A stretch of 64,000 bases of DNA, taken from positions 186,001-250,000 of the forward strand of contig JAURLX010000004.1 of assembly GCA_030830965.1 (NCBI GenBank). Reading direction: 5' to 3'. The stretch comes from Verrucomicrobiota bacterium (GTDB lineage Bacteria; Verrucomicrobiota; Verrucomicrobiia; Opitutales; UBA953). The position numbers and the translations under genes are program-made. How positions within the stretch are numbered: the stretch's first letter is position 1; each line of letters starts with the position of its first letter. The notes under the pieces were generated by a model. It was not told the DNA's origin, searched no databases, and worked only from the letters and a program-made list of their open reading frames with translations. This document shows, in pieces, positions 5,634-64,000 of this stretch.

Positions 5634-6947
5634 TCAGTAGTTGAACTGAAGCTGGAGCGCAAGCCGCTGCGCGTCCTCCACGACATTGTAAGGTGCTGAC
5701 GCGGTGTTGGTACGCTCCTTGGTGAAGGAATAGACCACCTGGATCTCATATTCCGGACGAACCTGCCATTCGAGCCCGAGGTCGATCTCGTTGACGACGA
5801 ACTTGGGGGCGTTGGTCGCGAACTTGCGCGCGCCGTCGAAGTAGTTCCAGCGGACGAACGGCGTGTAGACCGAGCCGCCGAGATTGAGCTGGTAGGAGGC
5901 CATGACATATCCGCCGTTGAGACTCTCGACGCCGATGCTGGTCCGGTCACCGTTGAGCTGCGGACCCTCGCCCCAGTTCCACTCGGCCTCGATGCCGAAA
6001 GGCTGCGGATACATGATGAAGGTGACGCATGTCCGCCGGTCATTGAACTCCGTGCCGCCCGAAGGAACGGCGGCGGCCCCGCCGCCAGCCGGCGTGACGG
6101 CCGCGCGGGAGATGACGTATTTGCCGGCGTAGGCGCCGACGCCCGCCTCGTAGATCTGGCCGCTTTCGGACTTCCAAGGATAGCTGAGACGGGCGAGGAG
6201 ATGGGGCTCCCCGTTCAGGTCGGACTTATTAAGGCCCTGGCCGTTGTAACCGCCGATGGTGAAGACGCCGTAGTCGCCCGATCCCTTGAGGCCGTCCTTG
6301 ACGAGGGACTTGAAGAGATCACGGGACTCCTTGGACGCGTACATGTAGTAGACGCCGACGTCGCGTTCGCCCTCGACCGCCGAATTGAGGGCCTCCGGAC
6401 GCTCGGTGACGATGCGGTTCTGGGAGGACTGGAGATTGACCCAGCCGTAGGGGACCTTGCTGAGGCCCACGCGCGCGCGGTGCTCCCTCAGGTCATCGAA
6501 GGCGATGTCGGCGTAAAGATCGCGGGCCTGCAGAGAAAGGCTGGAAGCGCCCGTGCTGGCCTGGAAATCGAGCTGGGAATAGAGATGGAGGCGGGGGGAC
6601 ACGTCTCCGCTGATCTTGAATCGTCCTCGACGGATCAAGAAGCTCTCGGTGGGCTTGGTCGATTTGTCCGCCGGAACATCGAGCAAGTCCGCCGCGTCGT
6701 TCAGCTGTTCCGTGAAACGGAGCTGGGTGTAGCCGTCGATCTTGAGCTTCTCATACCAGGAAGCCGGCTTGGCGGGAGCGTTGAGCTTGGCGATGGCGGC
6801 CTGCTCGAGGGCCTGGGCACGCTCCTCGGCGGTGATGATGCCCTTCTTGACAAGGAGATCGAGGGCGGGGTTGCGCTCCTGGGCGCCGGCGGGGATGACC
6901 GCCAGGGTGGAGGCCGCGAGCAGCGTGGTCTTGAGGATGTAGTTCAT
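5634..6947 (-). CDS. Outer-membrane porin (phosphate-selective porin O/P type)
   Basis: Beta-barrel channel of the outer membrane. The 437-residue product begins with a Sec signal peptide (KTTLLAASTLAVIPAGAQ, cleavage after about residue 23), then a short helical region (LLVKKGIITAEERAQALEQ) common at the N-terminus of Verrucomicrobial porins, then alternating aromatic/polar strands (DGYTQLRF, RGRFKISGDV, LHLYSQLDFQ). The chain ends in LQLQFNY with a C-terminal aromatic, the usual assembly signal. I place the start at ATG 6947, directly before the signal peptide, although the frame stays open to 7166. Solute specificity cannot be read from sequence, and I see no convincing promoter in its 110-base upstream gap. 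Confidence 0.85.
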   Translation of the reverse strand: MNYILKTTLLAASTLAVIPAGAQERNPALDLLVKKGIITAEERAQALEQAAIAKLNAPAKPASWYEKLKIDGYTQLRFTEQLNDAADLLDVPADKSTKPTESFLIRRGRFKISGDVSPRLHLYSQLDFQASTGASSLSLQARDLYADIAFDDLREHRARVGLSKVPYGWVNLQSSQNRIVTERPEALNSAVEGERDVGVYYMYASKESRDLFKSLVKDGLKGSGDYGVFTIGGYNGQGLNKSDLNGEPHLLARLSYPWKSESGQIYEAGVGAYAGKYVISRAAVTPAGGGAAAVPSGGTEFNDRRTCVTFIMYPQPFGIEAEWNWGEGPQLNGDRTSIGVESLNGGYVMASYQLNLGGSVYTPFVRWNYFDGARKFATNAPKFVVNEIDLGLEWQVRPEYEIQVVYSFTKERTNTASAPYNVVEDAQRLALQLQFNY

Positions 6948-7056
6948 GATCGGATGTGCGGGTGTGCGGAGACATCCTCTCAGAGGTCCATGGCGGAATG
7001 AGGACTGTGACGTGAAGAACGCGTCACGCCGCAGGGACGGAACGGTGTCCGTCGTG

Positions 7057-7947
7057 TTACGGACCTGTGACCGCGCCCCCGGGAAGGCAGGGCCCGAGGC
7101 CGGCGTACACGTCCGCGTAAAGGGGCTTCCAGCCGAGTTCAGCAGCGATCTTGGAAGCGTCCACACGGCGACTGGGCTGGGTGCGTCCGCCTTTGCGCAT
7201 GCGGGGGCCGGCCTCGGCCTCGGGCACGAACGCGGGCGGCGGCAGACCGAGCCGCAAGGCGATCCATCGGGCCAGCTCGGCCTTGGTCACGGGCCGACCG
7301 TCGGTCACGTTGTAGGTCCGGTGACCGGGCGGCCCGCCCTCGAGGGCCGCAATCACCGACGAAGCCGCGTCATCGCCATGCAGATAGTTGATGAGATGGT
7401 CGGATCGCCCGCCGACGACAGTCTCGCCGCGTCTGAAAGCGTCGAGCAGGTAGTGCCTACCGGGGCCGTAGAGCCCGCCGAAGCGCAAGGCGCGCGTGAA
7501 CGCGATCCCCGACCCCGCGGCAGCGGCCTCCCCCGCGAGGATGGCATCGGAGGCAAGGTCGCCGCCGGCCGGCGAATCCTCGTCGACGGTGACGCCGCCA
7601 TCCTGCCGATAGACGCCGGTGGAACTGGTGAAGACGAAGCGCTCCGCGCCGATCGCGCGGGCCCACTCCACGGCGCGCCGGACGCGGAAGTCATAGGCGG
7701 CCGCATAGGCTTCGGGTCCGCCGCCGCCCGCGCTGGCGGCGCAGACGACGCAATCGAAGTCGCGAGGCAACGCCGACCAGTCCGCGGCGTCGAGGTCGAA
7801 GGCGACAGCGTCTAGGCCCGCCGCCGCAAGGGCGTCGCGGGAACCGACCGAGCGGACCACGCCGAACGAGCTGACGCCACGGTCACGGAGAAGACGCAGC
7901 ACGCGCGCGCCGACGTAGCCGCAGCCCAAGATGACGGCACGTCTCAT
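7057..7947 (-). CDS. NAD(P)-binding SDR-like epimerase/reductase (YeeZ type)
   Basis: A 296-residue Rossmann protein beginning VILGCGYVGARVL, with VCAASAGGG, FTSSTGVY and a late NVTDGRPVTKAELA segment. The classical Tyr-x3-Lys catalytic pair is not evident after the STGVY strand, as in the atypical SDR group of E. coli YeeZ, so I would not assign a reaction. Its start ATG 7947 overlaps the lpxB stop (ATGA), making it the last gene of the clpB-oxidoreductase-lpxB operon. A role in sugar-nucleotide or envelope metabolism is inferred only from position. Confidence 0.75.
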   Translation of the reverse strand: MRRAVILGCGYVGARVLRLLRDRGVSSFGVVRSVGSRDALAAAGLDAVAFDLDAADWSALPRDFDCVVCAASAGGGGPEAYAAAYDFRVRRAVEWARAIGAERFVFTSSTGVYRQDGGVTVDEDSPAGGDLASDAILAGEAAAAGSGIAFTRALRFGGLYGPGRHYLLDAFRRGETVVGGRSDHLINYLHGDDAASSVIAALEGGPPGHRTYNVTDGRPVTKAELARWIALRLGLPPPAFVPEAEAGPRMRKGGRTQPSRRVDASKIAAELGWKPLYADVYAGLGPCLPGGAVTGP

Positions 7948-9128
7948 GGCAGGAAGGAGGCCGCCCACTCGGCGGGGGAGGAACCGGGCCGGGCGGAGAG
8001 CATTTCGCGCAGTTCCGCGGCGTCAAGGAGCGCCCGCTCGCGAGGCTCGGGCCCCTCGACGCAGGCGCGCAGCCGGGCGGCGAGGGCTTCGGGTTCGCAG
8101 GCGCCCTGCAGGTACTCCGGCCAGGCCTGGCGCTTCAGTAGAATGTTCGCGATCCCGAGATGGTCGACGCGCCCGGCGATGAGGTAGCGGCCCATCACCC
8201 AGGTCAGCGGATTGGCGCGATACACGACGGCGCCCGGGATGCCGGCTAGCGCCACCGAAAGGGACATCGTGCCCGAGCTCACGAGCGCGGCGCACCCGCC
8301 GGCCTGGCCCTCCCCGACCGGGCGGAGATCGACGCCCTTGGCGGCGTCGCCGTATTCGGCGAGCAGACGGTAGAGCTCGGCGTGCACCGATCCGCCGGTG
8401 TGCAGCACGAGCGCCCGCCTCCGGGGATCCTGGCACCGGTACCGGGCGAAGGCCTCGACGAGGGCGGGGAAGATCTTCCGGACGGGCTTGGGGCGGCTGC
8501 CCGGAAGCAGCAGGACCGGACCGTCGGGGTCGTAGCGCACCGGAGGCGCGTGCGTCTCGTTGACGAAAGGATGCCCGACGAACGTGGCTGGCAGCGTCGT
8601 GTCGGCGTAGCACCCGGTCTCGAAGGGGAAGATGACGCCGACGGCGTCAAGATCGCGGGCCATCGAGAAACGACGCCGCGGCTTCCAGGCCCACAGCTGC
8701 GGGCTGACATACTGGATCACGGCCGTCTCGCCGCCGCCCTGCCGGGAGAGGCCGGCGGCGCGCAGGTCGGCCGCTAGGCGCAGGTTCAGTCCGGGATAGT
8801 CGACCAGGATCACCAGCGCAGGCCGCCAGCGCAGGATCCAGGCGCGCATGGCGGCGAAGAGACGTCGGTAGAAGGGGTAGGCGGAGACGACCTCAACGAG
8901 TCCGACCGCCGAGAAGGCCGTCATGTCGAGGAGCAGTTGCGCTCCGGCCTCGCGGAGGCGGGGGCCGCCGAAGGCGGCGACGCGGAGTCCGGGCCGGCCG
9001 GCGACGAGCGCGCGGACCAGCTCGGACGCATGCTGGTCTCCGGAATGCTCGCCCGCGACCACGAGGACGTCCAGGTCGCCGCCGCGCGGCCGGGGGAACT
9101 CGTCGGGGATGGACGGGAAGGCGGTCAT
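7944..9128 (-). CDS. lpxB: Lipid-A-disaccharide synthase
   Basis: Transfers the 2,3-diacylglucosamine unit from its UDP form onto lipid X, giving the lipid A disaccharide at the inner face of the inner membrane. The product is 394 residues (E. coli 382), a GT19 glycosyltransferase with GEHSGDQHAS at about residues 26-35, FGGPRLREAG, VDYPGLNLRLA, YVSPQLWAWK and FVGHPFVNE. The start ATG 9128 overlaps the stop of the upstream oxidoreductase. It shows that the organism makes lipid A. No lpxA, C or D is in the window. Confidence 0.95.
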   Translation of the reverse strand: MTAFPSIPDEFPRPRGGDLDVLVVAGEHSGDQHASELVRALVAGRPGLRVAAFGGPRLREAGAQLLLDMTAFSAVGLVEVVSAYPFYRRLFAAMRAWILRWRPALVILVDYPGLNLRLAADLRAAGLSRQGGGETAVIQYVSPQLWAWKPRRRFSMARDLDAVGVIFPFETGCYADTTLPATFVGHPFVNETHAPPVRYDPDGPVLLLPGSRPKPVRKIFPALVEAFARYRCQDPRRRALVLHTGGSVHAELYRLLAEYGDAAKGVDLRPVGEGQAGGCAALVSSGTMSLSVALAGIPGAVVYRANPLTWVMGRYLIAGRVDHLGIANILLKRQAWPEYLQGACEPEALAARLRACVEGPEPRERALLDAAELREMLSARPGSSPAEWAASFLP

Positions 9129-10069
9129 CGGCGCGCCATGCCAGCGCGGATCTGCTCGGTGATCTGGATCGCGACGGCCAGGGCGGTACGGCCGAGCTCG
9201 CCGCTGACCTTCGGGCTCTTGCGTTCGCGGACGCAGGCGGTGAAGGAGGCGAGCTCGATGGCGAGCGGCTCGCCCTTCTCGATCGGGATCTCCTCCTTGG
9301 CGAAGCCGCCCTCGGCCGCGGGATCGACGCGCACGGTGTGCCCCTTCTGCCCCATGAAGTCGATGGAGAGGTAGCCGCCGGTCTGGAAGACGCGGATCTC
9401 GCGGTTCTTCTTCAGCGAGACACGGCTCGCGCTCAGGTTGGCGACGCACCCGTTGCGGAAGGCGATGCGGGCGTTGGCGATGTCCTCGGTCCTGGTCACG
9501 ACGGACACGCCGACCGCGTCGATGCGCTCGACGGGGGAGTTCGCCAGCTGGAGGACGATGCCGATGTCATGGATCATCAGGTCGAGCACGACCCCGACCT
9601 CGGTTCCGCGCGGCGTGAAGGGGGCCAGACGCTCGGCGGTGATGTAACGGGCGTCGGTGACGGTCCTCTCGAGGTAGGACATCACGGGGTTGTAGTGCTC
9701 GATGTGGCCGACCTGGACGAGCCGGTCGGCCTTGGCGGCGGCGTCCAGGATCCGGGAGGCCTCGTCCAGGGTCACGCAGATGGGCTTCTCGATGAGGAGA
9801 TGGACCCCCCTGGCGAGGAGCGGAAGCGCCACGGCGGCGTGATGGTTGGTCGGGACGACGACGCTAACGGCATCGCAGTGCTCCGCCATCTCGTCGAGCG
9901 TGGCGAACCGGCGGCAGCCGTGCCGGCCGCAGATCTCCGCGGCCCGCGCGTCGTCCGGCTCGAAGATCCCCGCGAGCTCGGCTCCCGGAAGGGAGGCGTA
10001 GATGCGGGCGTGGTGCTGGCCGAGCGAACCCGTACCGGCGACCCCGCAGCGGATGCGGCTGGCGGTCAT
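9125..10069 (-). CDS. Gfo/Idh/MocA oxidoreductase, GnnA-like (UDP-GlcNAc 3-dehydrogenase candidate)
   Basis: A 314-residue NAD(P)-dependent sugar oxidoreductase: N-terminal GTGSLGQHHA dinucleotide motif, EKP at about residues 94-96, GHIEHYNPV, and VLDLMIHDIG with the catalytic-region His-Asp at about 167-168. The pattern DIANARIAFRNGCVANLSAS with close coupling to lpxB (ATGA overlap) is what I expect of GnnA-type enzymes, which oxidise the 3-OH of UDP-GlcNAc so that a partner aminotransferase (GnnB) can make the 3-amino sugar used for amide-linked lipid A. No GnnB is seen here. Family membership is firm; the substrate is inferred from neighbours. Confidence 0.82.
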   Translation of the reverse strand: MTASRIRCGVAGTGSLGQHHARIYASLPGAELAGIFEPDDARAAEICGRHGCRRFATLDEMAEHCDAVSVVVPTNHHAAVALPLLARGVHLLIEKPICVTLDEASRILDAAAKADRLVQVGHIEHYNPVMSYLERTVTDARYITAERLAPFTPRGTEVGVVLDLMIHDIGIVLQLANSPVERIDAVGVSVVTRTEDIANARIAFRNGCVANLSASRVSLKKNREIRVFQTGGYLSIDFMGQKGHTVRVDPAAEGGFAKEEIPIEKGEPLAIELASFTACVRERKSPKVSGELGRTALAVAIQITEQIRAGMARR

Positions 10070-10099: not shown

Positions 10100-12700
<2,601 letters not shown>

Positions 12701-12887
12701 GCCTTGACCCATGCAGGAACCGTTCCCGCCCTGCCGCGGGTCAGCGGGGTGTTTTCGCGTCGCCGCAAGGGGCCGGCGGGACAGCCGAGCGACAATGCGT
12801 CGCTCCTGCGACGAGATGTCGCCGCAGCGGCGGCGGCGAAGGAGTCCCTTGTTGCGGTCAGGCCGGGATTCCGACATTTCCGAGAGG

Positions 12888-13724
12888 ATGCAAGAGGACG
12901 CGCGGCTGGCCCCCCTGGGGCGACTGCTTGACGACCCTTCCCCGGTCGTCCGCCAGGCCGTGCTCGAACGTCTCCGCGAGGCGGGTGTCGCCGGGATCGA
13001 ATGGCTCGAACAGAGGCTGGAAGCGGGGCCCGACGCGGAGCAGGCGAAGCTGCTGCTGGACTCGCTCCGCACGCCTGAATCCGCAGCCCGCGCCTTCATA
13101 CGCTACCTCGGCAGCGACAAGGCCGAGCTGGAGCGCGCCTGCCTGCTGCTCGAACGAGCCGCGGACCCTTCCCTGCCTGACGACGCCCATTCCGCGGAGT
13201 TCGACCGGCTCGCCGGACGGACCCGGGAGCTCCTCGTGGACCCGCAGGACCTCAGGAGCCGCTGCAAGACCCTCTGCCGGGTCGTCTTCGGGGAAGAAGG
13301 CTACCGCGGGGCCCGCGAGAGCATGTCATCGCCGGGCTCCTCCCTGCTCTCCCGCGTGATCGCCTCGCGCCGCGGCATCCCGATCTCCCTCTGCCTGCTC
13401 TGCCTCTTCACCGCCCGGAGGCTCGGGCTGCCCCTCGAGCCGGTCGGGCTTCCGGGACGGTTCATGCTCGGCGTGTTCAAGGGCAACGAGACGTTCTATC
13501 TCGACTGCTTCGAAGGCGGAACTTTCCGCACCCGTTCGGAAGTGCAGCTCATGCTGCTCGACAACCACCTCCCCGCGGACGAGGCCTTCCTGGGCCCGGT
13601 GTCGGCTCGGCAGACGCTGGCCCGCTGCTGTCGCAATCTGGTCTCGCAGTGCGAGGCTGCGGGCGACGACAGCCTGAGCCGCATGTACCAGGGATTCGCC
13701 CAGACGCTGGAGCGCGACGCATGA
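12888..13724 (+). CDS. SirB1/YchA-family transglutaminase-like protein
   Basis: A 278-residue cytoplasmic protein of the SirB1 (YchA) family, function unknown. The N-terminal third is helical and HEAT-like ([20 protein letters not shown]); the core has [20 protein letters not shown] and [20 protein letters not shown], the typical SirB1 signature, then [12 protein letters not shown]. The frame is open upstream to 12711, but I start at ATG 12888 where the homology begins. It overlaps aroE by four bases. The 187-base divergent gap to clpB should hold both promoters, neither clear to me. Confidence 0.8.
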
Positions 13725-28409: not shown

Positions 28410-31400
28410 TCACTTCAGGGTGGCCAGGTAGGCGAAGAGGTCGGCGATCTGGCCGTCGTCGAGGCCGTCGAGCAGGCCCTCGGGCATGAGCGAGCGGCGG
28501 AGATACTTGGCTGAACGCACCTCCGCCCTGGGCACGCGTCGGTCAGGTCCGCCGGGCTGGCGGATGACGTAGGCGGTCGCGTCCTCCGAGACATAGAACG
28601 ACTCGATGACCTCGCCCGTCCTGGTCTCGATCCGGAAGATGCGGTAGGCGGCCTCGATTGCGGCGTTGGGGTCGATGATGTTGCGGATGACCGCCTCCAT
28701 CCCCATGGCGCCGGCGCCGGAGAGATTGGGGCCGATCTGACCGCCCTGCCCGTTGATCATGTGGCAGGACTGGCAGAGTGCGGCGAGCGCCCTGCCCTTC
28801 GCGGCATCGCCGCCCTTCGCGGCCAGTGCGGTGAAACGGGCCGTCTTCGATTCAAGCGCCGCGAACTGCGCGGCGTTGAGCAGCGGCGGCGCATCGGTGG
28901 TGCGCGCGATGCGGGCTCCCTTGCCCAGCTTGCCCCAGGCGGCGTCACCGGAGGAGGAAACGAACACGAGGCCGGCCGGCGCCACCTTCTCGCCGGCGAA
29001 CGTGCGGGTCATGTGCGACCGCACCTCTTCCGGCCGGCGCGCGATGTTCCAGATGCGGTATTCGGCGAGCGCGCCCTGGGTGCCGCCCTTGGGCGTCGAC
29101 CAGCCGACGGTGAGCCCGGCAAGGTCATGCCCGTGGGCGGCCTTGGCGGTGCCGGTGAGCTCGCCGTCCTGGAAGAGCCGCAGCACGCCCTGCGCGTCGC
29201 GCGTGACGGCGACGTGGGTCCAGATGCCGGATGAGACCGGCTTGGAGGAGATGACCGCGTCATGGATCTTCCCGCCCAGGTAGGCGCGGAAGAATCCGCC
29301 GGCGAAGTTGAGGTCCAGCACGCCCGGAGCGCCGAGGATACTGTCGTTGTTGTCGACCTTGCCATCCAGCCGCACCCAGGTCTCCACCGTGAACGGACCC
29401 TTGAGCGTGAGCCCGCCCCGGGCGACCGCCGTGTCCGAGCCGTCGAGCAGGAGCACGCTGCGGAAGACGCCGCCGAGCCGGGCCGAGACATCGGCGAGCT
29501 CGGGGCCGTCGCCGAGGGCGATGGCGAGCTTCTCCGCGGCGGAAGGGTCGACCTCCGCGGCGGCCACGACGCCGGAAGCCAGCGCTGCGGCCACGGCCTT
29601 GGCGCCGGCCTTGGTGCCACTGAGGCCTTCGAGCACGCCCTTGCGGTCGTTCAGGGCGAGGTCCGGATAGAGCTTCAGGGCGAGCGCAGGCGCCTCGTCG
29701 GACCGCGAGGCGACGAGCGCGTCGAGGGCGAGGCGTGACACCTCGGCTCCGGACTCGCCGATGAACGGCAGGAGGACCGAGGGCTTGGACGTGCGCAGCT
29801 GCTGGAGAGCGACGAGCACCTCCTTGCGGGCATCCTCGCGGCCGAGGAGGGCCAGGACGTCGTCCTCGAACGCGGAGAGCTGGAAGCCTCCGGTCAGCCG
29901 CACGGCCAGCGAGCGGCCGGCCGCATCCTGCGCGAGGAGCGTGCGGACCGCCTCGGCGACGACGGGGCCCACCTTGGCGGCGTCGAGGTCGGTGCGGAAG
30001 GCGAGCAGCAGCTCGACCACGCGGACGCGCACCGACGCATCGGCCAGGAGCTTGCGCAATACCGCGGCGCTCTCGGGCTGATCCAGGGTCTTCGCGACGG
30101 CGAGAAGCTCGTCCGGGCCGGGCGCGCGGGAGAGCTGGCCGACCAGTTGGGCGACGAGCGGTGCGCCGACCTTGGGGTCGAGCGCGAGCGCCGCGAACAT
30201 GCGCCCTTCGGCCGGCAGCGACCTGGCGGCGTCGTCGGCGAGGAATGCGGCGACGGCCTCGGGCTGACGCTCCAGATACATGCGCACGAGGAAGCGTTCG
30301 AACTCGCGTTCGTAGGCCACGCCGGCCTTGGCGGGCTGGCCGCGACGGTCGGGCGCCATCGGACCGTCCAGGGAGGGCCTGGCGAAAGCCATCAACGCGC
30401 CGAGCGCGGCGGACGAATGGGCCGAGGCCTCGCCCAGCGTCTTGATGGCGGCGGCGCGGACTTCCGCGTCGGGGTCGTCGGCCAACGCGGTCAGGGCGCC
30501 GAGATGGGGTGCCCAGGCGCCGACGTGCCGGATGCCGTTCACGCCCTCACGTCGGATGTTTCGGTTCGGATCGGACAGCAGACGCTGCGCGAGCGGACCG
30601 ATCTTACGCCCGTGCTCGCCCATCACCCAGAGGGCCTGGATGCGCCGTGCGGCGGGCGCGGCGGCATCGGAGGCGATCGCCGAGAGCGCGGCCTCGAGGG
30701 CCTCGCCTTCGTCGCGTCGGTCGGCGAGCGTCTGCCAGGCGAGGTGGGCGTCGGCGGCGATCTTCGAGCCCAGGCGGGCGATGAGCTCGGCGGACGGCAG
30801 TCGCGTGTAATCCGGGACCGCGGCCGGCGTGAAGCCCTTGGGGCGGATGCGCCAGATGCGGCCGGACTGCTTGTCGCGGTCGGGATGGCTGCGTGCGACC
30901 TCGTTGTGGCTGATGATCTTGTTGTACCAGTCGACCACGTAGAGGCAGCCGTCAGGACCCATCGTCATGGCGATCGGACGGAAGAAGGGGTCGTCGCAGC
31001 TTACCAGGTCGTCGAGCTTCTCGAGGCGGTAGCCCGAACCCGCGCGATGCTGGCGCACCGCGTTCACCTTGGACGTGATCGGATTGGCGACGTACATCAC
31101 CCCGTCGAAGCCCTCGGGCCAGACGCCGGCGTCGGAAAGCGCCAGCCCGCTCAGGCCCGTACCGCCCATCTTGAAGCCGGGCGCCTGCACCGGGAACGGG
31201 GGCTGGTAGGACTTCGCCAGACGATCCGCGCAGCCCGGATACCAGGCGTACTCGTGGAACGGCATCACCGGGTAGCCGAAGTCATTGGCCTCCTGGATGA
31301 AGACCTCGCCCTCGCCCGTCATGGCGAGCCCCCAGATGTTGCAGGGGCCGGTGCTGGTCGGCTCGAAGTAGCCGCCGTCCGGACGGAAGCGCGCCATGCG

Positions 31401-32678
31401 CGTGTTGGGGAAGTCCGTGACGTCGCCCTTGGTCGTGACAACCTTGCCGCTGTTGAAGGCACCCTGCGCGAGCCAGAACCAGCCCCAGGGCGCGCGGGTG
31501 AACTGGTGCGGGAAAAGGTGGCTGTCCTGGATGCCGAAGCCCGCGAGCAGGACCTCCCGTCGGTCGGCGGCGCCGTCGCCGTCGGTGTCCCGGAGGAAGA
31601 CGACGTCGTGTCCGTGCTGGACCACCGCCCCGTCCCGGTAGGGCAGCACGCCCTCGGGGATCGCGAGCCCGTCGGCGAAGACGCGCGGCTTCTGCGGGCC
31701 GGAGGCGAACGGCGTGTCGAAGACCACGACCTTGTCGCGCGCCTTCGACTTGTAGAGCGCTTCCGCGGCGGCCGGATTCTCGTTGGCGTCGACCGGATAC
31801 TCCAGTGCGGTGCTGGACCACGCCCTGCCCCGCTGATCGAACACGAGCATGATGAATTTGCCGAAGCCGTCGGACTCCTTGGCGACCAGCTCGATCGTGA
31901 ATCCCTCGGGCAACCTGAAGAGCTTCTGCTGCTCCTCCGCGGCACGCCGCACCCCCTTCACGTTGTTGTAGCTGGTGTCGCGCGACGCCGCCTTGGGCGC
32001 GGCCTTCGGCTTGGGCGCCGCCGGCTTCACCGGGGGCAGCGTGGCCCAGGTCGGCGCGCCGGGCGTCGGCGGCAGCTCCTCGATCATCACGTCCTTGGCC
32101 TGCACGGCGGCCACCCCGCCCGAATGGAGCTGGATGCCGATGCGTCCGTCCTGCGCCATGCCGGGCTCCTTCTCGACGTAGTCCTGGGCCTGCACGCCGT
32201 TGATCCAAGTGCGGATGCGGGGACCCTCGGCGCGGATGCGGTACTCGTTCCAGTCGCCCTCCTTGACCGCGGCCTTGAGCGCGGCCGCGTCGAGCACGTC
32301 GGAGATGACGCGGTTGCGGCGGCTCTCATCGTAAAGCTTGCCGTACCAGCCCGGGCCATAGTCGCACTGGTAGCCGGACATCTCCGTGCTGCCGGGCACC
32401 CGGACGCTGCGGATCTGGATTCCGCCGTTCACGAATCCGGTGCCGTTCAGCCGGACCTTCAGCGTGAGCTCGAAGTTCTGGTAGGACTTCTCGGTGGCCA
32501 GGAAGAGGTTGCTCGGCACCTTCTCGCCGTCACGCCCGCCGCGGATCTCACCCGCCTCGACCCGCCACCAGGCGGCGTCGCCCTCCCAGCCGGCTAGGCT
32601 GCGGCCGTCGAAGACGGGGACGGGGGCGGCGGAACAGGCGGCGGCGAGCAGCGACGCCAGCAGACGTGACAGGGGCAT
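28410..32678 (-). CDS. Giant secreted PVC-type protein: DUF1080, dehydrogenase beta-propeller, HEAT repeats, LamG, cytochrome c
   Basis: A 1422-residue exported protein. After a signal peptide (about residues 1-18) come: a DUF1080/3-keto-glycoside hydrolase-like concanavalin fold (about 20-205; FDGRSLAGWEG, DGRIGIQLHSGG); a Pro/Ala/Lys linker; a PVC-type membrane-bound dehydrogenase propeller (about 240-650; LPEGFTIELVA, DTDGDGAADRREVL, MGPDGCLYVVDWYNK); HEAT-like repeats (about 660-1000); a LamG-like domain (about 1110-1280; TVETWVRLDGK); and a single-heme cytochrome c with CQSCH at 1302-1306. This suggests periplasmic sugar or polymer oxidation coupled to electron transfer. The frame is open above 32678, but the start is set by the signal peptide. 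Substrate unknown. Confidence 0.85.
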   Translation of the reverse strand: MPLSRLLASLLAAACSAAPVPVFDGRSLAGWEGDAAWWRVEAGEIRGGRDGEKVPSNLFLATEKSYQNFELTLKVRLNGTGFVNGGIQIRSVRVPGSTEMSGYQCDYGPGWYGKLYDESRRNRVISDVLDAAALKAAVKEGDWNEYRIRAEGPRIRTWINGVQAQDYVEKEPGMAQDGRIGIQLHSGGVAAVQAKDVMIEELPPTPGAPTWATLPPVKPAAPKPKAAPKAASRDTSYNNVKGVRRAAEEQQKLFRLPEGFTIELVAKESDGFGKFIMLVFDQRGRAWSSTALEYPVDANENPAAAEALYKSKARDKVVVFDTPFASGPQKPRVFADGLAIPEGVLPYRDGAVVQHGHDVVFLRDTDGDGAADRREVLLAGFGIQDSHLFPHQFTRAPWGWFWLAQGAFNSGKVVTTKGDVTDFPNTRMARFRPDGGYFEPTSTGPCNIWGLAMTGEGEVFIQEANDFGYPVMPFHEYAWYPGCADRLAKSYQPPFPVQAPGFKMGGTGLSGLALSDAGVWPEGFDGVMYVANPITSKVNAVRQHRAGSGYRLEKLDDLVSCDDPFFRPIAMTMGPDGCLYVVDWYNKIISHNEVARSHPDRDKQSGRIWRIRPKGFTPAAVPDYTRLPSAELIARLGSKIAADAHLAWQTLADRRDEGEALEAALSAIASDAAAPAARRIQALWVMGEHGRKIGPLAQRLLSDPNRNIRREGVNGIRHVGAWAPHLGALTALADDPDAEVRAAAIKTLGEASAHSSAALGALMAFARPSLDGPMAPDRRGQPAKAGVAYEREFERFLVRMYLERQPEAVAAFLADDAARSLPAEGRMFAALALDPKVGAPLVAQLVGQLSRAPGPDELLAVAKTLDQPESAAVLRKLLADASVRVRVVELLLAFRTDLDAAKVGPVVAEAVRTLLAQDAAGRSLAVRLTGGFQLSAFEDDVLALLGREDARKEVLVALQQLRTSKPSVLLPFIGESGAEVSRLALDALVASRSDEAPALALKLYPDLALNDRKGVLEGLSGTKAGAKAVAAALASGVVAAAEVDPSAAEKLAIALGDGPELADVSARLGGVFRSVLLLDGSDTAVARGGLTLKGPFTVETWVRLDGKVDNNDSILGAPGVLDLNFAGGFFRAYLGGKIHDAVISSKPVSSGIWTHVAVTRDAQGVLRLFQDGELTGTAKAAHGHDLAGLTVGWSTPKGGTQGALAEYRIWNIARRPEEVRSHMTRTFAGEKVAPAGLVFVSSSGDAAWGKLGKGARIARTTDAPPLLNAAQFAALESKTARFTALAAKGGDAAKGRALAALCQSCHMINGQGGQIGPNLSGAGAMGMEAVIRNIIDPNAAIEAAYRIFRIETRTGEVIESFYVSEDATAYVIRQPGGPDRRVPRAEVRSAKYLRRSLMPEGLLDGLDDGQIADLFAYLATLK

Positions 32679-32811
32679 GGGCTCGATCGTGGCGGCGGAG
32701 CGGACGGCCTCAACCTCCGACTCCCCTTCCGTGCGCAGACCCGCCACCTTCAAACGCACACGGGGCCGCGAGCACGCTTGCGTCCGCAGGCGGAACGCCA
32801 ACTTTGTAGCC

Positions 32812-33354
32812 ATGTCGGAAATTACGCTCATCCGAGATTGTCAGGCGTCGGTGATTCCCTCCGGCGACCTCGTGGTGCTGGAGAAAGGCGCGGTCGCGCA
32901 CGTGACGCAGGCCCTCGGAGGGAACGTCACCGTACGCACGCCGATGGGGCTCTTCCGCATCGACAGCCGGGACCTCGACGCCCTCGGCGCCGAGGCCGCG
33001 GCCCGCTACGCCGCCTCGCCCTCCGACCCGGCCTCCGCCGGACCGCTGGATGAGGACGCCCTGTGGCAAGCCCTCAAAGGGTGCTTCGACCCCGAGATCC
33101 CCGTCAACATCGTCGACCTCGGGCTCATCTACCATCTCGCGCTCACCGACGGCGCGAAAGGCAAGCGCGTGGCGGTCAAGATGACCCTCACCGCCCAGGG
33201 CTGCGGGATGGGTCCGGTCATCGCCGGCGACGCCAAGGCGAAGCTCGAGGCGCTGCCGGGCGTCGAGTCGGCCGAGGTCGAGATCGTATGGGACCCCGTG
33301 TGGAATCCGCGCATGATCTCCGAAGAAGGCCGGCAGCAGCTGGGACTGGAGTGA
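32812..33354 (+). CDS. sufT: SufT-type Fe-S assembly protein (DUF59/MIP18 family)
   Basis: A 180-residue protein with an N-terminal 75-residue extension typical of SufT and a C-terminal DUF59 domain: FDPEIPVNIVDLGLIY, then LTAQGCGMGP with the conserved Cys, and VWDPVWNPRMISEEG. It is expected to aid maturation of iron-sulfur proteins. ATG 32812 is chosen because homology begins there; the frame is open upstream. Its stop overlaps the hemW GTG start (GTGA). No other suf genes are visible. Confidence 0.88.
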   Translation: MSEITLIRDCQASVIPSGDLVVLEKGAVAHVTQALGGNVTVRTPMGLFRIDSRDLDALGAEAAARYAASPSDPASAGPLDEDALWQALKGCFDPEIPVNIVDLGLIYHLALTDGAKGKRVAVKMTLTAQGCGMGPVIAGDAKAKLEALPGVESAEVEIVWDPVWNPRMISEEGRQQLGLE

Positions 33355-54833: not shown

Positions 54834-55907
54834 TCACGCCGTCGGCGGCCCGGCCTCGGGGAAGTCCCGCAGGGCCTCGCGCACCGCGGCGGCCCGGCGC
54901 ACGTCGCGGGCGTCGCTGTCAAGTTCGGCTCCGACGAGCGCCTGCACATGGGCGGGCTGGCCCTCGATCATCAGGCGATCGACCGTGGAGCGTCGCTCCT
55001 CGGGGAGGCATCCCATGTCGCAGGCGAGCCGGAGGAGCGAGAGCATGTTCATCGACTCCGCGCTGGTGAGCAGACGGGCATGGCGCAGCAGTCCGAGGGC
55101 GCGCGCGGCGCGGTCGACGAACTTCTCGCCCTCGTCCGCGGCAAGCCGGCGACGGGCGTTCCACTCCTGCTCCACGACATGCTTGATCCAGCCCGCAAGA
55201 TGCCTGCGGATCTCCTCCTCCGAACGACCGAGCGTCTGCTGGTTGGAGATCTGGAACACGTTGCCGACGGCCTCGGTACCCTCCCCCAGCCAGCCCCGCA
55301 CGGCGAGGCCGTCCTGGCCGAGACCGCGCGCGACCTTGTCCATGTGGCCGGACAGACAGAGCCCCGGCAGATGGAGCATGGCGGAGGCGCGCAGGCCGGT
55401 GCCGACGTTGGTCGGGCAGGCGGTCAGGTACCCGAGGCGCTCGGAGAAGGCGAACCCGAGCCGCGGGGCGAGCGCGTCGTCCAGCTGCTCCGCGATCTGC
55501 CAGGCGCTGGCGAGATGCCAGCCTGCCTTCACGACCTGGATGCGCAGATGGTCCTCCTCGTTGACCATCACGGAGCAGGTCTGGTCGCGGCTGATGACCG
55601 CCGCCCCGGCCTTGCCGGCGGCGAGCTCCTTCGAGACGAGGTGACGCTCCACCAGCACGGTACGGTCGAGGTCGGCCAGCTCCGCCATGCGCAGGACATG
55701 GCCGCGGCGGAACCGGGGGAGCGCGACGAGCGAACGCAGGCAACGCTCCGCGACTTCTTCACGCTGGGCTGGCTTGGACCAACCTGGGAAGGGGAGCCCG
55801 GACAGATTGCGGGCGAGCCGGATGCGCGTGCTCAGCACCACGGGCTGCTGGGCGCCGAGCATGTGGGTGAGCTCGTTCTCGGCCTGGAGGATGTCGCGGA
55901 CGGACAT
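54834..55907 (-). CDS. mcsB: Protein arginine kinase McsB-like
   Basis: Phosphagen-kinase-fold enzyme that phosphorylates protein arginines, marking them for ClpCP in Firmicutes. It is 357 residues, full length. Visible motifs: STRIRLARNLSGLPFPGW, NEEDHLRIQV, the catalytic-Cys block TACPTNVGTGLRAS, and a C-terminal RDVRRA (about 334-339) fitting the RDxxRA phospho-arginine pocket of McsB. Its start lies two bases after the mcsA stop. The presence of both the kinase core and the pArg pocket argues against a creatine/arginine kinase of metabolism. Confidence 0.9.
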   Translation of the reverse strand: MSVRDILQAENELTHMLGAQQPVVLSTRIRLARNLSGLPFPGWSKPAQREEVAERCLRSLVALPRFRRGHVLRMAELADLDRTVLVERHLVSKELAAGKAGAAVISRDQTCSVMVNEEDHLRIQVVKAGWHLASAWQIAEQLDDALAPRLGFAFSERLGYLTACPTNVGTGLRASAMLHLPGLCLSGHMDKVARGLGQDGLAVRGWLGEGTEAVGNVFQISNQQTLGRSEEEIRRHLAGWIKHVVEQEWNARRRLAADEGEKFVDRAARALGLLRHARLLTSAESMNMLSLLRLACDMGCLPEERRSTVDRLMIEGQPAHVQALVGAELDSDARDVRRAAAVREALRDFPEAGPPTA

Positions 55908-55909
55908 GG

Positions 55910-56395
55910 TCAGGAGCTCTTGACGACGGCCTCGAGGCGCAGGATCTCGTCCCGCAGCCGGGCGGCCGTCTCGAACGCCTCGGCCTTGACGGCGGCCTCG
56001 AGCTCGCGCCGGGCCGACTCGAGACGGACGCGTGCCGGGCCGGCGGCCCCGGACGAGCCGGCGGGCGCACGGCCCTGATGCGCGGCGTCGTGCTGGACCT
56101 TGGAGAGCAGCCCGCCGAGGGCATCGGCGAAGACGGTCCAGCAGGCGGGGCAGCCGAGCCGTCCGCGCTTGCGGAAGTCGACGTCGGTGAAGCCGCAGGC
56201 GGGGCAGACGATGGCGGCGGGCGCCGAAGGGGCGGCGAGCGCGTCCGCGAGCTTGAACACGGAGGGGTCGGTCGCGCCGCCCTTCTGGGCGCAGGCGTCG
56301 CAGAGATGCACCTTGGTGAACTTACCGGCGTCGATCTGGGTGAGGTCGACGGTGGCGGGCTGGCCGCAAATGGAGCATCGAGAGGAGTCGCCCAT
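55910..56395 (-). CDS. mcsA: McsA-like zinc-finger/UVR activator of the arginine kinase
   Basis: A 161-residue protein with four CxxC pairs (Cys7/10, 32/35, 64/67, 82/85), forming two zinc sites as in McsA, then a linker and a C-terminal UVR motif (about residues 120-155, RRELEAAVKAEAFETAARLR). McsA activates McsB and docks on ClpC. It directly precedes mcsB in the Firmicutes order; ctsR is absent. A TTGCCA-N16-TTTGCT promoter lies just upstream. Confidence 0.88.
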   Translation of the reverse strand: MGDSSRCSICGQPATVDLTQIDAGKFTKVHLCDACAQKGGATDPSVFKLADALAAPSAPAAIVCPACGFTDVDFRKRGRLGCPACWTVFADALGGLLSKVQHDAAHQGRAPAGSSGAAGPARVRLESARRELEAAVKAEAFETAARLRDEILRLEAVVKSS

Positions 56396-56404
56396 CGCCA
56401 GACG

Positions 56405-56441
56405 AGCAAACGACGGGGGCGTCCGATGGCAAGGGCAAGCG
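56405..56441 (-). promoter_or_regulatory. Candidate promoter of mcsA-mcsB
   Basis: Minus strand: CGCTTGCC at 56441-56434, then TTGCCA (56432-56427), 16-base spacer, TTTGCT (56410-56405), ending 9 bases before the ATG. The -10 is identical to those of rpmB and tRNA-Asp. Confidence 0.5.
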
Positions 56442-56451
56442 GGGGCGGGGT

Positions 56452-56480
56452 TTGACTTCCGCGGCCGCCGACGGCTTGAT
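56452..56480 (+). promoter_or_regulatory. Candidate promoter of the ketosynthase gene
   Basis: TTGACT (56452-56457), 17-base spacer, CTTGAT (56475-56480). It overlaps the in-frame ATG 56479, supporting ATG 56494 as the real start. Confidence 0.35.

Positions 56481-62466: not shown

Positions 62467-64000
<1,534 letters not shown>

Follow-up and report, generated by a model that had tools for sequence, protein, structure and literature searches.

Protein-arginine phosphorylation is familiar above all from Gram-positive bacteria such as Bacillus, Geobacillus and Staphylococcus, where the pair McsA-McsB works together with ClpCP and with the phosphatases YwlE/PtpB. According to the accessible portions of the respective papers, the C-terminal zinc finger of McsA activates McsB (PMC12467219), R337/D338 of Bacillus subtilis McsB constitute the receptor site for phospho-arginine, pArg (PMC8370763), structure 5hbn represents the pArg-bound N-terminal domain of ClpC with E32 and E106 as pArg-site residues (PMC12583610), and a Thr in the P-loop of the phosphatase, at the position preceding the final CR, directs the enzyme to pArg, and an Ile to pTyr (PMC8001253). 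Regarding Gram-negative hosts, McsAB and ClpC of Chlamydia are already in print (PMC10128030, PMC5177608), and the chlamydial ClpCP2P1 is reported to degrade pArg-casein (PMC10128030); in the accessible text of these papers, the production of pArg in Chlamydia is left open (PMC10128030, PMC5177608). In addition, Methylacidiphilum on formic acid is reported to increase expression of mcsB (Minf_0242) 3.21-fold and of an unfoldase gene (Minf_0241) 2.26-fold, and both are induced along with groESL and dnaK (PMC8024496).

The locus considered here lies in what we call the window, i.e., the whole stretch of 64,000 nucleotides that was analysed, which belongs to a Verrucomicrobiota bacterium whose genome (G000) is available as a 1.835 Mb draft of 30 contigs, 87% complete. 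The features of the window on which the discussion is built are as follows.

54834-55907, minus strand: mcsB, predicted protein-arginine kinase of 357 aa (PF00217, 6fh1, key residues)
55542..55562, minus strand: NEEDHLR block of McsB, residues 116-122, with catalytic E118 and ATP-site R122 (alignment A1)
55395..55418, minus strand: CPTNVGTG block of McsB, residues 164-171, with active-site C164 (alignment A1)
54891..54908, minus strand: RDVRRA of McsB, residues 334-339, with the predicted pArg receptor site R334/D335 (alignment through 6fh1)
55910-56395, minus strand: mcsA, predicted McsB activator of 161 aa (UVR PF02151, NF053706, 8wtb_B)
56427..56459, minus strand: conserved non-coding block upstream of mcsA, in the gap between the divergent mcsA and ketoacyl-synthase genes
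62467..64000, minus strand: 3' part of clpC, with a UVR motif (full gene G000:C12:248467-251001, 844 aa)
7944-9449, minus strand: lpxB (PF02684, 2.9e-62)
5634-7166, minus strand: porin (PF07396, 1e-27)

By their ORF coordinates, mcsA and mcsB are separated by two bases. A preliminary description, made from the letters of the window, had assigned the pair to 54834..56441; both ORFs do lie there, with the correction that coding stops at 56395 and that 56396-56441 is intergenic and includes part of the conserved block upstream of mcsA. The same description had deduced a Gram-negative envelope from lpxB and a porin, both of which were recovered in the window by Pfam match, and had placed the end of a UVR-containing ClpC at 62467, which is correct, the ORF continuing beyond the window. 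This clpC gene shares the strand of mcsA and lies some 6 kb upstream of it, and the interval between them is occupied by other genes, some of which are on the opposite strand. Among the named contigs, the closest relatives have McsB proteins that are 88-89% identical, and their contigs are labelled Opitutae and Verrucomicrobia. The window also encodes a second Hsp100, ClpB (10100-13099, minus strand; TIGR03346 at 1274.8 bits, above its cut-off), and a 1473-aa protein (28410-32831, minus strand) with DUF7133, 3-keto-disaccharide hydrolase, laminin-G, HEAT and cytochrome c domains.

McsB matches the ATP:guanido phosphotransferase family of Pfam (PF00217, E=1.6e-60), and its best solved-structure match is Protein-arginine kinase 6fh1 (1.6e-79), which we take to come from Geobacillus, with residues 18-347 covering residues 22-354 of 6fh1. 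The scores with the NCBIfam models, namely 4.6e-110 and 367.9 bits for the protein arginine kinase model NF002194 and 340.9 bits for NF053707, are under the respective cut-offs of 385 and 500, which are database thresholds and not biological features, and the protein was filed as McsB on its residues and structure match. The motifs CPTNVGTG, NEEDHLR and RDVRRA each have their aligned counterpart in 6fh1, and the two kinase blocks are kept at residues 164-171 and 116-122, as stated in the preliminary description. In alignment A1, which comprises 18 McsB proteins (17 come from named contigs), N116, E117, E118, D119 and R122, as well as C164, P165, N167, G169 and E209, are invariant across all rows. 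Seven residues were scored, i.e., R28, R30, R122, R173 and R204 at the ATP site and the catalytic E118 and E209, with roles that we take from the numbering of Limulus arginine kinase. All seven are retained in the window protein and in each of the 18 rows, so at the sequence level the loss of catalytic Glu or Arg, which would speak against a kinase, is not what the alignment displays. Moreover, R334/D335 correspond through 6fh1 to R337/D338 of B. subtilis McsB, in agreement with the earlier reading of RDVRRA as the pArg pocket. The pair is not universal, RD being found in 12 of the 18 rows. An AlphaFold model built from the 18 sequences has a mean pLDDT of 90.1 and a pTM of 0.88, and its C-terminal part is helical.

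The catalytic domain family PF00217 is shared with kinases of another kind, and McsB could in principle be a phosphagen kinase acting on free arginine as an energy buffer. Arginine kinases do match the protein, most of them at about 1e-25 to 1e-22 and the two-domain ones better; however, the McsB structures match far better (1.6e-79), and the match to a single-domain arginine kinase begins only at about residue 118, so that the N-terminal domain of the phosphagen kinases is missing. From the 6fh1 match and the model, the protein has instead its own McsB-type C-terminal part with the RD pocket, and it is encoded adjacent to McsA. This reading was rejected on the structure matches, and we consider it extremely improbable.

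The partner protein matches the UVR family (PF02151, 8.8e-08), the solved McsA 8wtb_B (4.7e-19) and NF053706 (8.9e-24), the last at 84.3 bits and under its cut-off of 210, which again is a database threshold and no biological feature. The four CxxC pairs listed in the preliminary description are found at 7-10, 32-35, 64-67 and 82-85, and its UVR motif at 124-156; between them, HQGRAP at 106-111 conforms to the motif HxG[KR]xP. Judged from their sequences, McsB and McsA form a true protein-arginine kinase pair, which is probably active.

The remaining components were looked for in the genome. The N-terminal domain of ClpC, with both of its GTEH motifs, falls outside the window and was read from the full gene in G000: the protein has a double Clp_N domain, both pArg-site glutamates, the UVR motif and the AAA modules, and its N-terminal domain matches ClpC structures that include 5hbn (1.4e-38), the GTEH glutamates being equated with E32/E106 by correspondence of the motif. 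No ClpC model is present among the top 25 NCBIfam matches of this protein. The searches for clpP and ywlE that had been proposed with the preliminary description both gave candidates. ClpP is represented by one strong match (1.8e-63), plus two weaker family matches, so its absence, which would count against the pathway, is not observed. Of two genes of the LMW-phosphatase family, one is YwlE-like, with the P-loop CTGNTCR (Thr before CR in the CX4CR loop), the acid motif DPF and the arginine phosphatase YwlE 4pic as its best solved match (3.1e-20), and its neighbours are a purD-like gene, named by eye, on one side and rpiB-glyA on the other; the second gene resembles arsenate reductase (3.7e-35, under its cut-off).

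All five components, together with their key residues, are thus encoded in this genome, and the likely explanation, in our judgement, is a working McsA-McsB pathway that leads from pArg to ClpCP, is opposed by a YwlE-like counter-enzyme, and is governed, as far as the searches reach, by a regulator other than CtsR or HrcA. In such a pathway, the C-terminal zinc finger of McsA would switch on McsB, which would move the phosphate of ATP onto arginines of damaged or selected client proteins; ClpC would take pArg in the two pockets of its N-terminal domain and deliver the client to ClpP, and the YwlE-like phosphatase would strip the mark. We infer the catalysis, the choice of clients and the coupling to ClpCP from the encoded proteins. 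This explanation is favoured because McsB has its seven residues, C164 and R334/D335, and because the motifs of McsA, the GTEH motifs of ClpC, ClpP and the YwlE-like gene are all in place. Alternatively, pArg might serve to regulate certain proteins reversibly and not primarily to tag them for degradation, as has been proposed for targeted pArg regulation in Mycolicibacterium in the accessible text of PMC9604228; the presence of an eraser-like gene and the fact that mcsAB and clpC do not form one operon here would both suit this possibility. On the other hand, the pArg-site glutamates of ClpC are kept, ClpP is present, and mcsA-mcsB-clpC are contiguous in several relatives, and we hold a mainly regulatory mark to be quite improbable.

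Regarding the control of the proposed ClpCP pathway, the preliminary description had not seen CtsR in the window, and a search of the 87% complete genome bears this out, with no match to PF05848 in G000, while in the controls B. subtilis was negative and Lactococcus positive for CtsR. The B. subtilis control detected HrcA, ClpP and the LMW phosphatase but missed both CtsR and Clp_N; as ctsR and clpC are located in one operon in B. subtilis, the control may lack or mask that stretch. Across the phylum, CtsR was found in one of 288 genomes, with a marginal 22.8 bits, and HrcA in none of 19 relatives, which include the bacterium itself and of which nine are of high quality. Neither CIRCE nor the CtsR box occurs in the window or in the stretch around clpC, and as far as searched, control of expression is not via CtsR or HrcA. 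The conserved block at 56427-56459 can be made out in 26 relatives, chosen from 68 named loci to be aligned with the window, and is weakest in L044; its strict pattern is found in 23 of 226 loci, the form of the window being one base shorter, and its 15-base core has one exact occurrence in the window. It could serve either mcsA or the ketoacyl-synthase gene. As an element shared by mcsA and clpC it was discarded: with up to three mismatches, the core has 2 occurrences in the window for 3.0 expected, the only match around clpC has two mismatches and lies inside the gene (0.43 expected), and no regulon is claimed.

The arginine kinase pair had been presented as unusual for a Gram-negative genome, and this point is not supported. 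In a survey of 288 genomes of the phylum, each at least 80% complete, which used the McsB alignment as query and accepted matches of 1e-20 or better, McsB was found in 267 genomes and in 232 of the 250 of high quality, and the cases of Chlamydia and Methylacidiphilum are in print. Because of this distribution, the McsA-McsB pair is ordinary for its phylum, and the window is a further case of a known system. A scan of named genomes returned 68 loci, mostly from Opitutales/Opitutae with a few from Omnitrophota, Lentisphaerae, Planctomycetota and others, and McsA adjoins McsB in 67 of them (the exception is L073). The clpC match starts 50-91 bases past the mcsB match in L057, in L058, L060, L063 and L065 (Opitutales or Opitutia), and in L064 and L066 (Omnitrophota); in many of the named loci, the contig or the flank ends before clpC could appear.

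The matches to McsB were divided at 1e-95, a cut chosen after inspecting the scores, which gives 219 genomes with a strong match, 48 with a weak one and 21 with none. All 32 strong genes that were read keep the seven key residues, in a sample that is not random, as 30 of them are the best-scoring ones. Another 19 genes were read (L117-L135), of which 17 are from the 48 weak genomes and two, G069 and G286, from the 21, recovered at a looser threshold. Only the gene of G117 keeps all seven residues, and the other 18 (L118-L135) keep 0-4, with the proviso that the alignment of the most diverged rows is unsure and that single residues differed between two readings. In all 27 loci examined (8 strong, 19 others), mcsA adjoins the McsB gene and its product keeps at least four CxxC pairs, and the HxG[KR]xP motif is present in 8/8 strong versus 2/19 others.

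These degenerate genes lend some substance to the view that, in the window also, McsA-McsB is mainly an adaptor or scaffold of ClpC, for which phosphorylation matters less or not at all. All 19 genes have open frames, 18 of them despite keeping 0-4 of the seven residues; all 19 are beside mcsA, with a clpC N-domain match next, within 0.8 kb after mcsB and on the same strand, in 14; and five dead McsB pairs have dN/dS of 0.12-0.38, at a dS of 1.2-4.2 that is near saturation, so that the ratios suggest retention only, as if the proteins were kept without their chemistry. For the McsB pair of the window, dS is saturated and there is no ratio. However, none of the tested catalytic residues is missing from the window McsB, and a Thr-type YwlE-like gene is kept in the genome; we consider a mainly adaptor role unlikely here because a lineage that could do without the chemistry would not be expected to keep either. 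In several of the other lineages, by contrast, these sequences indicate that McsA-McsB may have become a non-catalytic partner of ClpC.

As for the putative eraser, the Thr-type P-loop is found in 120 of the 288 genomes, i.e., in 118 of the 219 with strong McsB, in none of the 48 with weak McsB, and in two of the 21 with none; within genus g28 (2.2-3.5 Mb), it is found in 11 of 12 genomes with strong McsB and in not one of the 10 whose McsB is weak or missing. The Fisher values are 1e-14 (strong vs weak) and 3e-5 (g28), and they are not independent, as the genomes are related. All 11 Thr-positive strong genomes of g28 have two LMW-phosphatase matches, whereas nine of the ten weak-or-none genomes have one and G193 has zero, and the loop of the single phosphatase is CLGNICR in the eight read (G286 left out). 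The notion that a Thr-type YwlE always accompanies an intact McsB was ruled out by the 101 of 219 strong-McsB genomes that are without the motif. An LMW phosphatase is present in all 25 of those examined, and 17 of the 25 yielded a glyA-linked YwlE-like gene, among 30 loci read; the residue in these 17 is Ile (14), Ser (2) or Val (1), and for this reason the Thr rule does not hold throughout this group, or else many relatives are without a pArg-specific eraser. In other families of the same order (L154-L162, L166), the glyA-linked loop is CTANICR instead of CTGNTCR although the McsB there scores as intact, and these genes lend themselves to a test of the Thr/Ile rule. Separately, in several families (L142, L144, L146, L148, L150, L151, L153), an LMW-phosphatase domain is located within open frames that span about 600-760 aa. 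For some of them, rpiB or glyA signals lie close by, and the frames are possible gene fusions that involve a YwlE-like phosphatase.

As for the reader, a ClpC N-domain match was obtained in 35 of the 36 genomes searched, and in the 30 that were read, an intact pair of GTEH motifs occurs in 15 of 16 strong rows, our genome included, versus 2 of 14 others. In the 10 weak rows of g28, the first motif is GAEH in 8, while the other two have NSEH and GTEH. That the pArg-site glutamates are fully lost along with weak McsB was ruled out, as they are kept in 14/14 and only their neighbours change. In a ClpC tree of 28 rows, nine weak-McsB genomes of g28 form one clade and G096 stands apart, among the strong ones (96/91); a minimum of three label changes fits this tree, of which the starred branches require two or more, so that about two events carry the case for co-loss in g28.

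For the window, these comparisons further favour a working pArg-to-ClpCP pathway because mcsB and clpC are contiguous in relatives and the Thr motif accompanies strong (118/219) and not weak McsB (0/48), to which are added the induction of mcsB in Methylacidiphilum and the degradation of pArg-casein by chlamydial ClpCP2P1; it is weakened because both proteins score under their NCBIfam cut-offs, relatives have non-Thr glyA-linked YwlE-like genes, mcsAB is 6 kb from clpC, and the genome is 87% complete. More tentatively, the phylum could have inherited a CtsR- and HrcA-free pArg-to-ClpCP pathway, which would be complete in the lineage of the window, and several lineages could have made McsA-McsB a dead partner of ClpC, without the Thr-type eraser. 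If true, McsA-McsB would serve ClpC in a further way that does not need the kinase, and active forms like that of the window might do so too. Within the open-licence literature, searched by titles and the starts of abstracts, no paper on dead McsB or on the distribution of McsB in this phylum was found among those listed. Relatives with dead McsB are a natural set for separating the kinase role from the role as ClpC adaptor, and this comparison is the part of most value to specialists.

Compared with the system of Bacillus, Geobacillus and Staphylococcus, the one described here has kinase, activator, reader and eraser of the same families, with the same catalytic and pArg-pocket residues, and its ywlE-like gene is near rpiB and glyA, as in Bacillus. 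It differs in that CtsR and HrcA were not found, mcsAB and clpC are 6 kb apart, and the host has lpxB and a porin; a search for ctsR in the 87% complete genome, and for its box in the window and around clpC, did not give a clpC operon of the CtsR-regulated, Firmicutes type. An animal-type arginine kinase shares the catalytic domain and the key residues with the window McsB, which differs in being without the N-terminal domain and in having the McsB C-terminal part and a McsA partner. Closer in lineage, the McsAB and ClpC-ClpP1P2 of Chlamydia, as presented in the accessible text, also belong to a Gram-negative host, of the same superphylum, and have an mcsAB operon apart from clpC; the Thr-type YwlE-like gene is a finding for the present genome. 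Methylacidiphilum belongs to the same phylum, with an mcsB homologue named in print, and its mcsB and unfoldase genes bear consecutive locus tags in the accessible part of that report, whereas those of the window are 6 kb apart. Collectively, the complete pArg kit is normal for this Gram-negative phylum, where it goes without the repressor of the first studies, and for this reason general quality control, rather than control through CtsR, may be the older role of the kit.
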